Source: Marmoricola sp.
GTDB taxonomy: Bacteria > Actinomycetota > Actinomycetes > Propionibacteriales > Nocardioidaceae
DNA: 60,083 nucleotides
Direction of reading: 5' to 3'
Assembly (NCBI GenBank): GCA_025965315.1
Contig: JAOPXD010000030.1
Span: forward strand, 1 to 60,083
Part shown: positions 31,611-35,400 of the stretch, piece by piece
Position numbering within the stretch: the stretch's first letter is position 1
Layout: each line of letters opens with the position of its first letter
The notes under the pieces: model-generated
The model's database searches: none
The model's input: the letters and a program-made list of their open reading frames with translations, nothing else
What the model was told of the DNA's origin: nothing
Translations under genes and position numbers: made by a program

Positions 31611-33056
31611 GTGCGTAGAGCAAAGATCGTGTGCACGCTCGGGCCGGCTACCTCCACGAAGGAGAGCATCCGTGCCCTCGTGGACGCCGGCATGGACGTA
31701 GCCCGCCTGAACATGAGCCACGGCACCCATGCCCAGCATGAGGCTGCCTACAAGTTGGTCCGCGCGGCCTCCGACGAGAGCGGTCACGGTGTCGGGATCT
31801 TCGCCGACCTCCAGGGGCCGAAGATCCGGCTCGGCTGGTTCCGTGACGGGGGTGTCCGGGTCCAGACCGGGCAGACCTTCACGATCACCACCACCGAGAT
31901 CTCCGGCACCAACGAGATCGCCTCCACGACGTACGAGGGCCTGCCCGGCGACGTCAACGAGGGCGACCAGATCCTCATCGACGACGGCAAGGTCCGGCTG
32001 CGGGTCACCAGCGTCGACGGCAACGAGGTGCACACCCGGGTCGAGGTCGGCGGTCGGCTCAGCGACCACAAGGGCATCAACCTGCCCGGCGTACCGGTCA
32101 GCGTGCCGGCTCTGTCGGAGAAGGACATCGAGGACCTGCGCTGGGCGCTGCACCTGACGGTCGACTTCATCGCGCTGTCTTTCGTGCGCTCGGCCAAGGA
32201 CGTCGAGGACGTCCGCAAGATCATGCACGAAGAGGGCGTGATGCTCCCGGTGATCGCGAAGATCGAGAAACCGCAGGCGATCGACAACCTCGACGAGATC
32301 ATCAAGGCGTTCGACGGCTTCATGGTCGCCCGCGGGGACCTCGGCGTCGAGTGCCCCCTGGAGGACGTGCCGTTCCTGCAGAAGCGCGTGGTCGCCAAGG
32401 CCCGACGCAACGCGAAGCCGGTGATCGTCGCGACCCAGATGCTGGAGTCGATGATCACCAATCCGGCCCCCACCCGTGCGGAGGCTTCGGACGTTGCCAA
32501 CGCGGTGCTCGACGGCGCCGATGCGGTGATGCTGTCCGGTGAGACGAGCGTGGGGGAGTACCCCATCGAGACGGTCAACGTGATGCGCCGGATCATCTCC
32601 TCGACAGAGGACCACGAGCTGACCCGGATGGCTGCCATCGACTGGCAGCCCAAGACCCGTGGTGGGGTCGTCGCGAAGGCGGCGGCCGAGGTCGCCGAAC
32701 GCGTCGGCGCGAAGTACCTGGTCGCGTTCACCCAGTCCGGCGACTCAGCGCGTCGGCTTGCCCGCTACCGCGGGGTGATCCCGGTCCTCGCGTTCACTCC
32801 CGAGGCGCACGTCCGCTCGCAGCTCTCGATGACCTGGGGCGTGGAGACCTTCAAGACCGTCGAGGTCGAGCACACCGACCAGATGGTCCGTCAGGTCGAC
32901 GAGCAGCTGCTCGCCGCGGGCCGCGTCGAGGAGGGCGACATCGTCGTGATCATCGCCGGTAGTCCTCCAGGCATCCCCGGTTCGACCAACGCGCTGCGCA
33001 TCCACCGGATGGGCGACGCCATCAACGAGGTGGCTCCGGCGTACCGGAGTAAGTGA
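31611..33056 (+). CDS. pyk: Pyruvate kinase
   Basis: Pyruvate kinase converts phosphoenolpyruvate and ADP to pyruvate and ATP, the last step of glycolysis. The 481-residue product has RRAKIVCTLGPAT, NMSHGTH, the catalytic Lys in PVIAKIEKPQAIDN, MVARGDLGVECP and MLSGETSVGEYP, with the C-terminal allosteric domain intact. GTG 31611 follows a strong -10-like element by six bases. Its last 35 bases overlap the 3' end of a small gene on the other strand. Confidence 0.96.
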   Translation: MRRAKIVCTLGPATSTKESIRALVDAGMDVARLNMSHGTHAQHEAAYKLVRAASDESGHGVGIFADLQGPKIRLGWFRDGGVRVQTGQTFTITTTEISGTNEIASTTYEGLPGDVNEGDQILIDDGKVRLRVTSVDGNEVHTRVEVGGRLSDHKGINLPGVPVSVPALSEKDIEDLRWALHLTVDFIALSFVRSAKDVEDVRKIMHEEGVMLPVIAKIEKPQAIDNLDEIIKAFDGFMVARGDLGVECPLEDVPFLQKRVVAKARRNAKPVIVATQMLESMITNPAPTRAEASDVANAVLDGADAVMLSGETSVGEYPIETVNVMRRIISSTEDHELTRMAAIDWQPKTRGGVVAKAAAEVAERVGAKYLVAFTQSGDSARRLARYRGVIPVLAFTPEAHVRSQLSMTWGVETFKTVEVEHTDQMVRQVDEQLLAAGRVEEGDIVVIIAGSPPGIPGSTNALRIHRMGDAINEVAPAYRSK

Positions 33057-33331: not shown

Positions 33332-33883
33332 TCAGTCGAGTGTGGCACGCCAACGGGCCAGTTCGCGAGGGTTTCGGAGCCGTACGACGGGAAGCTCTGG
33401 ATCGGCCTCGAGCGCAGCCCAGACTCGCTCCGCGGTCCGCGGGTGCGAGGTCCACGCCCAGCGGATGATGTGCTCGGGGTCGATCAGGATCCGCGACAGC
33501 GGGCCTTCCCGGTTGCCGTTCCACAGCTCGGTACGGCGGAACCGCCGGCTCAGCGTGCGTCGGACGACCCGGGCCACCGAGGTCCGTCGAGGGAAGTCGA
33601 GCCAGATCACCAGGTCGCAGTGAGCCAGCAGGATCGGTCGGGCTTCGACGTACTGCCATTCGCTCACCCAGCACTCCTGGGCTGCGAGGGAACGGACGTC
33701 GTCCAGGAACTCCGGGCGGGGGACCCAGCTCGGCCCGTGGTAGAGCCCGTCGATCTCGGCGTACGGCAGGCCGAGGTCCGTGGCCAGCGCGCGAGCCAGT
33801 GTGCTCTTGCCGCTCCCGGAGCTACCGCTGATCAGGACACGTCGCGGAGCCAGTGGGAGTAGGTCGTCCGGGCCGAGCAGCAC
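33332..33883 (-). CDS. P-loop NTPase, adenylate kinase/FlaR-like
   Basis: The 183-residue protein has Walker A GSSGSGKS at about residues 20-27 in the context RRVLISGSSGSGKSTLARAL, an EIDGLYHGPSW substrate-type segment and an Arg-rich lid (VVRRTLSRRFRR). This pattern matches small kinase-like proteins often named topology modulation proteins. The substrate is not known. GTG 33883 lies six bases after TAGAGT, so the mRNA is probably leaderless, and that -10 overlaps the stop codon of the upstream gene. Confidence 0.82.
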   Translation of the reverse strand: MLLGPDDLLPLAPRRVLISGSSGSGKSTLARALATDLGLPYAEIDGLYHGPSWVPRPEFLDDVRSLAAQECWVSEWQYVEARPILLAHCDLVIWLDFPRRTSVARVVRRTLSRRFRRTELWNGNREGPLSRILIDPEHIIRWAWTSHPRTAERVWAALEADPELPVVRLRNPRELARWRATLD

Positions 33884-33889
33884 CGCGCC

Positions 33890-33895
33890 ACTCTA
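33890..33895 (-). promoter_or_regulatory. Candidate -10 for leaderless kinase gene
   Basis: TAGAGT (minus strand) is followed by six bases and GTG 33883. It includes the stop codon of the upstream HTH gene. Confidence 0.5.
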
Positions 33896-34618
33896 GGGCT
33901 TCACGCCGATCAGTTCATCAAGTCGCGCGACCCCGGCCCGGGTCGAGACCGACAACGTCCTTCGGTTGGTCTGCCGCCAGGCGACGTCGGTGCGGTCGAG
34001 CGCCTGACCGCACCACTTCATGATGTCGGCCGACTCGTTGGTGAACTGCCAGCGTGGGTACTCGTAGCGCTTGAGTACGCCTTGCACTGGACGGGTCGTC
34101 CCGTTGTTCACCCGGCAGCCGTCGGAGTGAAACAGCCCGCGCAGGAAGGCCGCAGGGTAATCGTCGACGATCGCCTGCTGCCAAGGCTCCATCACGAGCG
34201 TCCGCTCGTGCTTCCGCCCGGGTCCGTGCTGCGGAAACAGGCACGGCCAGTACTGCCAATAGCTCTGGACGACGACACAACCCGGTGCCGAGACACGGTA
34301 GGTACGGCGGTCAGGGTGAACGGCCTCGATGCAGGCCTCCACGTCGGCGATGATTCCGGGGAACTTCGCGTCGCACGAAATTCGAAGCGAGTATGCCCGG
34401 CCGTTTCGCGAGATGCAGCCGTCGCCGAGGTAGAAGCCGAGAAGCGCTGCGTACGCACGAGTCGGGGCGTGCGGTGCCGGACAGCCGCGTACCGGCGCGG
34501 ACGAGCTCCAGTCGCGGATGGTCGAGCGACCGATGCCGAGACTCCGGCTGACGTCACTGAGTGACACGCCGGTTGCAAGCAGGTGGGCTGCTTCCGAACG
34601 CTTTTGCGGTCCGTACAT
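33893..34618 (-). CDS. HTH plus LAGLIDADG-like protein next to a tRNA
   Basis: The 241-residue protein begins with a helix-turn-helix (about residues 6-38, LSDVSRSLGIGRSTIRDW). It then has two LAGLIDADG-like repeats: LLGFYLGDGC (59-68, Asp66) and FLRGLFHSDGC (158-168, Asp166), separated by a conserved LFPQHGPGRKHER...WQ block. The two acidic residues sit where homing endonucleases place catalytic Asp. From memory, similar proteins are widespread in actinobacteria and annotated only as HTH or transcriptional regulators. ATG 34618 is chosen because the longer frame merely reads through the tRNA. The gene starts 33 bases after the tRNA 3' end on the same strand, so tRNA and gene may share a transcript. 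It could be a site-specific nuclease, a regulator or a domesticated homing protein. Confidence 0.8.
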   Translation of the reverse strand: MYGPQKRSEAAHLLATGVSLSDVSRSLGIGRSTIRDWSSSAPVRGCPAPHAPTRAYAALLGFYLGDGCISRNGRAYSLRISCDAKFPGIIADVEACIEAVHPDRRTYRVSAPGCVVVQSYWQYWPCLFPQHGPGRKHERTLVMEPWQQAIVDDYPAAFLRGLFHSDGCRVNNGTTRPVQGVLKRYEYPRWQFTNESADIMKWCGQALDRTDVAWRQTNRRTLSVSTRAGVARLDELIGVKP

Positions 34619-34651
34619 AGCCGTACTCTTGCAGCCGCAACTGACACTTCT

Positions 34652-34727
34652 TGGTGCCCCGGGTGGGATTCGAACCCACACTGGATGGATTTTGAAACCA
34701 TTTCCTCTGCCGTTGGGATACCGGGGC
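34652..34727 (-). tRNA. tRNA-Leu (anticodon CAA) with a short variable loop
   Basis: The minus strand folds as a 76-base cloverleaf with encoded CCA: acceptor GCCCCGG/CCGGGGC, a 3-bp D-stem TCC/GGA, anticodon arm ATGGT-TTCAAAA-TCCAT (anticodon CAA; one U31-U39 mismatch), a five-base variable loop CCAGT and T-arm GTGGG-TTCGAAT-CCCAC. Leu-like traits are discriminator A73, a CAACGGCAGA D-loop of the tRNA-Leu layout, A15 and U48. The usual long Leu variable arm is absent. It may be an unusual leucine tRNA or a tRNA of altered identity. Confidence 0.85.
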
Positions 34728-34775
34728 CAACCAGGCCCAAACGCTACCGGACCAGCACCCCGGGTCCGTACTCGG

Positions 34776-34788: not shown

Positions 34789-35400
34789 GTGACCGAGATT
34801 TCCGCTGTCCCCCACCGACGACGGGTCGTCATCGCCGAGGACGAGGCGTTGATCCGCCTCGACCTCGCCGAGATGCTCGCCGAGGAGGGGTACGACGTCG
34901 TGGCAGCCGTCGAGGACGGTGAGCAGGCGATCGCGAAGACCGAGGAGCTGCGGCCCGACCTGGTGATCCTGGACGTGAAGATGCCGCGCCTCGACGGCAT
35001 CGCCGCGGCCGAGCGGATCGCGTCGCAGCGGATCGCTCCGGTGGTGATGCTGACGGCCTTCAGCCAGCGCGATCTGGTCGAGCGCGCCCGCGATGCCGGC
35101 GCGATGGCCTACTTGGTGAAGCCGTTCGGGAAGTCGGACCTGATGCCGGCGATCGAGATGGCGGTGAGCCGTTTCGCCGAGCTCCAGCTGCTCGAGGCCG
35201 AGGTCGCCGACCTGTCCGAGCGACTCGAGACGCGCAAGGTCGTCGACCGTGCGAAGGGTGTGCTCCAGGAGAAGCTCGGGCTCTCCGAGCCCGACGCGTT
35301 CCGGTGGATCCAGAAGACCGCGATGGACCTGCGGCGCTCGATGCGCGAGGTCGCCGACGGCGTGGTCGAGCACGGCGTCGACATCGCCGACCCGCACTGA
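34789..35400 (+). CDS. pdtaR: ANTAR-domain response regulator
   Basis: The 203-residue protein has a receiver domain (IAEDEALIRLDLAEM; phospho-acceptor Asp in LVILDVKMPRLDG; Lys in YLVKPFGK) joined by a coiled coil to an ANTAR RNA-binding domain (RKVVDRAKGVLQEKLGLSEPDAFRWIQKTAM). Such regulators bind dual-hairpin RNAs and prevent transcription termination. Location next to pyk and a tRNA-Leu is recalled from other actinobacteria. The cognate kinase (PdtaS type) is not in the window; the kinase at 3175 is a membrane type and not an obvious partner. Confidence 0.92.
   Translation: MTEISAVPHRRRVVIAEDEALIRLDLAEMLAEEGYDVVAAVEDGEQAIAKTEELRPDLVILDVKMPRLDGIAAAERIASQRIAPVVMLTAFSQRDLVERARDAGAMAYLVKPFGKSDLMPAIEMAVSRFAELQLLEAEVADLSERLETRKVVDRAKGVLQEKLGLSEPDAFRWIQKTAMDLRRSMREVADGVVEHGVDIADPH

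Follow-up and report, generated by a model that had tools for sequence, protein, structure and literature searches.

A class I tRNA-Leu(CAA) gene and an adjoining HTH-LAGLIDADG nuclease gene that appear to be exchanged between actinobacteria as one cassette

The DNA analyzed here, referred to as the window, is a stretch of 60,083 nucleotides from Marmoricola sp. Its sole tRNA gene, a tRNA-Leu(CAA) at 34652-34727, is followed on the same strand, 33 bases past its end, by an open reading frame (ATG at 34618, stop at 33893) for a protein with a helix-turn-helix (HTH) and LAGLIDADG motifs (Table 1). An earlier note on this DNA had singled out these two genes, with this spacing and orientation, and its coordinates are right; it did not mention that the tRNA, despite its leucine identity, has a short arm (class I). 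According to passages of PMC7609411, the long arm (class II) is the normal state of leucine tRNAs. The window tRNA holds A73 and an encoded CCA, and its energy folding is not significant (z -1.25).

Table 1. Features of the locus and of its borders (positions in the window).
Feature	Position	Strand	Basis or remark
Pyruvate kinase gene (pyk)	31611..33056	plus	Conserved site border, outside the cassette
P-loop kinase-like gene	33332..33883	minus	Tested and excluded as a part
HTH and LAGLIDADG protein, 241 aa	33893..34618 (stop codon included)	minus	ORF, Pfam, predicted structure
Asp166 codon, motif SDG, invariant	34121..34123	minus	Homologue alignment
Asp66 codon, motif YLGDG, invariant	34421..34423	minus	Homologue alignment
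TGTCAGT, variant of leader motif TGTCGGTG	34640..34646	minus	By eye
tRNA-Leu(CAA), class I	34652..34727	minus	tRNA search; 76 nt, short variable loop
TAGCGT, putative -10-like hexamer 5' of the tRNA	34741..34746	minus	Inference
pdtaR-like response regulator gene	34789..35400	plus	Conserved site border, outside the cassette

A scan of the window with the sigma-70 promoter consensus found no site. Between the tRNA and the nuclease gene of the window no terminator-like site was found, so that both may be co-transcribed. In Streptomyces loci L031-L044, a hairpin followed by T residues, read by eye as a terminator, lies between the two genes beside tRNAs of both classes, and the nuclease gene there is therefore probably served by its own promoter. 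Many filled loci of Nocardioidaceae and Kribbella-like genomes hold the leader motif TGTCGGTG, or a near variant of it, between the tRNA 3' end and the nuclease gene (L021, L023, L012, and L015, in addition to the window), and a motif of this kind is kept in L030, which is a decayed locus. It is possible that this motif is an operator or a part of the nuclease target.

The Pfam model LAGLIDADG_3 matches the protein above its cut-off (27.5 vs. 22.5 bits), over residues 153-177 only, and HTH_23 scores slightly under its own (23.6 vs. 24.6 bits, E 4.5e-5). Structure prediction, proposed as a check by the earlier note, returned an AlphaFold2 model (pLDDT 93.6, pTM 0.82) with a three-helix N-terminal part and two LAGLIDADG-type repeats, the predicted arrangement being that of the two-repeat fold, with alpha-beta-beta-alpha-beta-beta-alpha repeats placed around two LAGLIDADG helices. 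A Foldseek search of this model against the PDB gave 114 matches with E up to 0.001, headed by I-AniI, I-Tsp061I, I-SceI, I-DmoI, and WhiA. The TM-scores by query length are modest (0.41-0.55 for the best 50 of the 114 matches), and these best 50 are, by their titles and by what we take some of them to be, LAGLIDADG enzymes, a maturase, an intein, or WhiA. A PDB sequence search with the window protein gave no meaningful match.

Each LAGLIDADG motif is closed by an acidic residue, Asp66 and Asp166, at the positions to which the earlier note had pointed, and none of the 149 intact homologues departs from these two residues or from Lys136 and Arg139. The motifs YLGDG, SDG, and WQ, together with residues of FPQHG.G.KH.R, are also invariant in the homologues. 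A median dN/dS of 0.19 over 269 homologue pairs (75-97% identity) indicates purifying selection. The tRNA gene is uninterrupted and the nuclease ORF is separate, which places the latter outside an intron or intein. In a literature search of titles and abstract starts, with sparse coverage of subscription journals, neither this HTH-LAGLIDADG family nor a tRNA class switch was described among the matches listed, which is weak evidence of novelty.

Homologue searches gave matches in 30 of 98 relatives and in 36 of 396 genomes of the phylum, the window genome being counted in both. According to ARAGORN, a tRNA gene lies at most 362 bp from the nuclease match in all 59 loci obtained in this way (window included), with a median of 94 bp. 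The neighbors are tRNA-Leu(CAA) in 51 loci, Leu(TAG) in four, Leu(TAA) and Leu(CAG) in one each, and Trp(CCA) in two. Twenty further matches stand outside these loci: 12 from the search of relatives represent additional copies or fragments in genomes already counted, and the eight from the phylum search comprise a strong second copy in G122 and seven weak matches (E 4e-6 to 7.6e-4), six of which sit in open frames of more than 1,200 codons. The control gene rpoB had a tRNA within 1500 bp in none of 30 loci. In the window genome assembly, which is 90.5% complete and has 51 tRNA matches (RF00005), a random gene would have a chance of about 1% of falling within 362 bp of one of these matches and of 0.02% of falling this near tRNA-Leu(CAA) itself. 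The preference for tRNA neighbors over controls, a comparison that the earlier note had suggested, is thus strong, and the tRNA and nuclease genes behave as the unit suspected there. Of the outcomes that the note had named as refuting its idea, neither was observed: homologues are not indifferent to tRNA neighbors, and the predicted structure has both the LAGLIDADG fold and the acidic residues.

The two homologues beside tRNA-Trp(CCA) (L048 and L051) adjoin a gene whose anticodon arm resembles, by eye, that of tRNA-Leu(CAA), a hint that this arm may be part of the nuclease target. A search of named genomes brought up 583 relatives, the best 80 of which form a second collection; these are the nearest to the window protein and hence rich in class I, and they come from Nocardioides, Kribbella, Streptomyces, Kitasatospora, Actinopolymorpha, Actinomadura, Nocardiopsis, Streptosporangium, and uncultured kin. 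Among these best 80, a tRNA-Leu(CAA) lies within 450 bp upstream in 77: class I on the same strand in 73, class II on the same strand in three, and class II on the opposite strand in one. The exceptions are L173 and L205, with a tRNA-Leu(CAA) at 2249 and 976 bp, respectively, and L177, which meets a contig end.

An alignment scan of IMG/VR brought up distant relatives (27-39%) in 12 viral contigs, and in eight of them the match is preceded by a tRNA at a distance of 450 bp or less; a single-sequence scan of viral contigs confirmed no relative. The viral neighbors (L249-L258) include tRNA-Leu(TAA), 3 or 15 bp away, tRNA-Leu(TAG), and tRNA-Met(CAT), 31 bp away from the matched part. In L251, the match is followed at a distance of about 156 bp by a tRNA-Ala; in L254, a tRNA was called inside the matched ORF, which makes this call doubtful; and the DNA examined in L259 and L260 held no tRNA. 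Searches of the INPHARED phages and the PLSDB plasmids found no relatives, which leaves the close family without an observed vector.

The cassette occupies a conserved chromosomal site, whose border genes in the window we take to be pdtaR and pyk. Both a pdtaR-like gene and a pyruvate kinase gene are present in the examined flanks of 202 of 277 CAA loci, typically in the order pdtaR, tRNA, nuclease gene, pyk. Empty sites are common (in L132, for example, 13 bp separate the pyk match from the tRNA), and decayed nuclease copies are found in L026-L030, in L059, and as second copies in L016 and L020. The P-loop kinase, which according to the earlier note could also belong, turned out not to be a part: a relative of it is present in seven of 119 loci scanned (five genomes), two of them lacking the nuclease (L120 and L123), and it is missing from most nuclease-bearing loci in the flanks examined.

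Two arrangements are found in Kribbella-like genomes. In one of them, pyk, a class II tRNA, nuclease B, and pdtaR all lie on one strand. In the other, pyk is followed by nuclease A and a class I tRNA on the opposite strand, and then by nuclease B, whose leader starts, by eye, a few bases from the point that corresponds to the class II tRNA end of the first arrangement. A class II tRNA remnant was sought by eye between the class I tRNA and nuclease B of these loci, and none was seen. The presence in these genomes of an intact second nuclease beside a class I tRNA, without a class II tRNA of its own, counts against the reading of the pair as a homing cassette. Tandem full-length nuclease genes of different types, on one strand and beside a class I tRNA, are found at G526:C1:2578970-2580538 and G538:C50:6967-8542.

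At the pdtaR-tRNA-pyk site, the tRNA is either the ordinary long-arm form or the unusual short-arm one. One covariance model for class I (R1) and another for class II (R2) tRNA-Leu(CAA) were run on the relatives and on 150 Streptomyces genomes. By a count made by hand, a strong R1 match (E 1.2e-17 or better) is present in 96 of the latter, an R2 match (E 1e-15 or better) in 48, and neither of them at these cut-offs in six; both models matched at one locus in 0 of 150, and three of the 48 R2 genomes have a weaker R1 match elsewhere. A nuclease or a fragment of it is present in 111 of the 150 (by our own reading, 88 of full length without stops, 23 broken or partial, and 39 with no match), and many class I tRNA loci are without a nuclease. 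A strict rule by which nuclease type equals tRNA class does not hold: nine Streptomyces carry the second nuclease type (52-58% to L031) next to a class I tRNA, and G584 carries the first type with a class II tRNA. These exceptions indicate that the two parts can recombine.

For the co-inheritance trees, 213 of the 277 CAA loci provided a usable non-duplicate pdtaR and 149 of them an intact nuclease, the loci being the best-scoring ones of each search and not a random sample. On the nuclease tree of the 149 loci, the tRNA type changes seven times (300 shuffles: mean 30.2, range 27-33), in contrast with 32 times on the pdtaR tree of the same loci (shuffled mean 30.3, range 25-33). On the pdtaR tree of all 213 loci there are at least 48 type changes, near the shuffled values (mean 56, range 47-63), which means little host signal; the same tree is sound for families (five changes, shuffled mean 55). 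For 116 loci, a concatenated pdtaR and pyk tree gives 23 type changes vs. five on the nuclease tree. A 1.8-kb stretch of rpoB from 89 Streptomyces (58 class I and 31 class II, the class resting on model hits alone for at most 12) gives 24 changes (shuffled mean 25.8; 245 of 1000 shuffles as low). In the 56 Streptomyces with an intact nuclease, there are 16 changes on the rpoB tree (shuffled 16) and four on the nuclease tree (0 of 1000 shuffles as low). Distances in rpoB correlate at 0.55 with those in pdtaR and at 0.26 with those in the nuclease. To judge from these trees, the type of the tRNA goes with the nuclease rather than with the host.

The presence of the nuclease was also considered as a predictor of tRNA class, and no association was found in independent pairs on the pdtaR tree; it is the type of the nuclease, and not its presence, that matters for class. 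This lack of association, together with the class I loci that have no nuclease, implies that ordinary recombination could also spread the tRNA type. The nuclease tree mostly follows families (four changes for four families), a result that speaks against a homing cassette and indicates that exchange takes place mostly within families.

The exchange can be seen in pairs of genomes that are close by rpoB, namely L266/L326 (99.1%), L319/L291 (99.0%), L305/L334 (98.4%), and L273/L341 (97.8%). Their flanks are mostly 88-100% identical per 50-base window, and between them lies a sharp-edged block of about 0.7-1.0 kb that is mostly 40-60% alike or missing. The left edge of the block is about 55-110 bases upstream of the tRNA and its right edge within the nuclease gene or at the end of that gene, so that it takes in upstream sequence, the whole tRNA, the spacer, and much or most of the nuclease gene. 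The pair L273/L341 represents a filled and an empty allele of one site, as in free-standing homing. By these alignments and the trees above, the sequence flanking the nuclease gene appears to be co-converted with it. A fifth, less close pair (L274/L332) shows a noisier pattern. The window itself was compared with its relative G004 (L153), whose pdtaR is 96% identical: the upstream region is similar, the tRNA is class II, no nuclease match is present, and the downstream side gives no useful alignment.

Regarding the origin of the short-arm form, ARAGORN (on fetched loci and the window) assigns the Leu CAG and GAG tRNAs of the window genome to class II, and the UAA, UAG, and CAA ones to class I. 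No second copy of tRNA-Leu(CAA) was seen in these sequences of the incomplete assembly; a genome of the same order (G015) has at least two class II matches, so that a single copy is unproven for the order of the window. The class I CAA tRNA of G010, from the Nocardioides group, is identical to the class I UAA tRNA of the window genome at 71 of 75 positions, and the window's own CAA tRNA at 64 of 76. In the control family f11, which has an R2 match in 49 of 60 genomes, the 30 best CAA loci are all class II, with pdtaR nearby in 28 and no nuclease match in the flanks examined, and no f11 genome is among the 36 with nuclease matches in the phylum search, where four f11 genomes were searched. All 30 inspected R1 loci of f11 are class I tRNA-Leu(UAA), so that in some lineages the class I body belongs natively to a UAA tRNA. 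An anticodon change in a short-arm tRNA-Leu(UAA) may have given rise to the short-arm tRNA-Leu(CAA), which would have spread afterwards. In Streptomyces, 98 of 100 matching genomes have one R1 match, which means that a resident class I UAA tRNA is generally not seen at the cut-off used, and a local origin of class I CAA is unlikely there.

According to these data, the tRNA and the nuclease gene appear to be exchanged between species as one cassette, and the protein is probably a free-standing LAGLIDADG homing nuclease coupled to its own copy of tRNA-Leu(CAA). In the pathway postulated, donor DNA bearing the cassette would enter a related cell, and the nuclease, finding its site through its HTH and LAGLIDADG surfaces, would cut the allele already present there, in or close to the tRNA-Leu(CAA) gene. 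The break would then be repaired by recombination between the conserved flanks, pdtaR and pyk, and the donor block would be copied in. The incoming tRNA, different from the resident one (often class I for class II), would supply the tRNA function and remove or alter the cut site, making the linked tRNA resistant and the cleavage the driver of the exchange. Later on, the nuclease gene would decay or be deleted and the new tRNA would stay. A tRNA-Leu(UAA) could read UUG by wobble, and the presence of this tRNA in the same genome may make tRNA-Leu(CAA) a tolerant target. A bolder reading, held tentatively and at somewhat below even confidence, is that of a natural cleave-and-rescue element: the nuclease would destroy the resident host tRNA gene and bring a recoded, uncuttable replacement, repeatedly rewriting long- and short-arm architecture across actinobacterial genera. 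A linked alternative tRNA copy is present beside the nuclease; under this reading it would resist cutting.

An unlikely alternative is that the site is a recombination hotspot in its own right, in which tRNA alleles spread by homologous recombination or drift and the nuclease hitch-hikes. The common class I loci without nuclease are consistent with it, as are the failure of nuclease presence to predict class, the separability of both parts (as in G584), and the long, well-conserved flanks. Nevertheless, the acidic site is intact and under purifying selection, one hotspot hardly explains why the tRNA neighbors in the phylum and in viral contigs are of several kinds and orientations, and family f11, with no detected nuclease, is class II in 30 of 30 inspected CAA loci, 28 of them with pdtaR nearby.

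It is very unlikely that the HTH-LAGLIDADG protein has, in the manner of WhiA, lost the ability to cut and now regulates or processes the neighboring tRNA. WhiA is among the fold matches, an HTH is present, and co-transcription in the window is possible given the lack of a terminator-like site; however, WhiA has lost key metal-binding and catalytic residues, as passages of PMC3781837 describe, and both Asp residues are invariant here. The patchy presence and frequent decay of the gene and the terminator seen by eye in Streptomyces loci also count against such a role, which leaves the block exchange unexplained. Of the three mechanisms offered in the earlier note, homing is the one that fits best, and RNA processing and regulation of the locus fail on the block exchange and on the empty and decayed sites. 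Also very unlikely is a counter-defense, in which short-arm tRNAs would be selected to escape nucleases of the variable loop or the anticodon, with the DNA nuclease helping to exchange or amplify them. A precedent, according to parts of PMC13096335, is SegB of phage T6, which amplifies a tRNA gene and allows escape from Septu cutting of the tRNA-Tyr variable loop, and distant relatives do adjoin tRNAs in viral contigs. Nevertheless, cassettes with long-arm tRNAs exist too.

The enzymes I-DmoI, I-AniI, I-SceI, and I-Tsp061I are intron-borne. The predicted structure shares with them the two-repeat fold and the two motif Asp residues, and the cassette nuclease differs in being free-standing beside a tRNA and in its additional N-terminal HTH. 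WhiA (DUF199) also combines a LAGLIDADG domain with an HTH in actinobacteria; as described in passages of PMC3781837, its LAGLIDADG part is N-terminal, whereas the HTH comes first in the cassette protein, and the loss of catalytic residues given there as a trait of the WhiA family does not apply to the window family, which keeps both Asp. The cassette would work in a manner analogous to the intronless homing of phage T4, above all that of SegB. In the accounts that parts of PMC2988022 and PMC13096335 give, free-standing T4 nucleases spread with co-conversion of their flanks, SegB makes breaks within tRNA genes, and segB is enriched near tRNAs. The likeness to T4/T6 SegB and to seg/mob homing is thus that of a free-standing homing nuclease in a tRNA region. 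SegB has a GIY-YIG fold and resides in the tRNA arrays of phage genomes, in contrast to a LAGLIDADG and HTH protein at one conserved site of bacterial chromosomes in most relatives, where the tRNA type is swapped. In mycobacterial phage-like tRNA clusters, as parts of PMC6582537 report, HNH genes accompany horizontally moved tRNAs, one of them a short-loop tRNA-Leu(TAG); these clusters hold many extra tRNAs and an HNH fold, whereas the cassette replaces a single chromosomal gene.

Genes for tRNAs are usually treated as stable core genes. Here, one tRNA-Leu gene, which is coupled to a nuclease of selfish appearance, switches structural class at least 24 times when 89 Streptomyces are placed on an rpoB tree. 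Cleave-and-rescue gene drives are synthetic and couple a nuclease to a replacement copy of its target gene. The cassette shares with these engineered drives the nuclease and the alternative tRNA copy, its cutting and resistance being presumed. If the mechanism holds, it would be a natural bacterial counterpart of such drives, would offer LAGLIDADG nucleases against tRNA genes by the hundred (583 relatives), and would give mobile DNA a route to reshape the translation machinery.

Why leucyl-tRNA synthetase accepts its leucine tRNAs whether or not they have the long arm becomes a testable question. No Lys(TTT) was seen among the tRNAs fetched from the window's incomplete assembly. The same genome holds class I forms of tRNA-Leu(UAA) and tRNA-Leu(UAG) at G000:C181:3659-3733 (L104) and G000:C36:26241-26314 (L102), respectively, and an odd 80-nt tRNA at G000:C193:4864-4942 (L108), called Gln(TTG) by ARAGORN and different from the Gln(CTG) of this genome.
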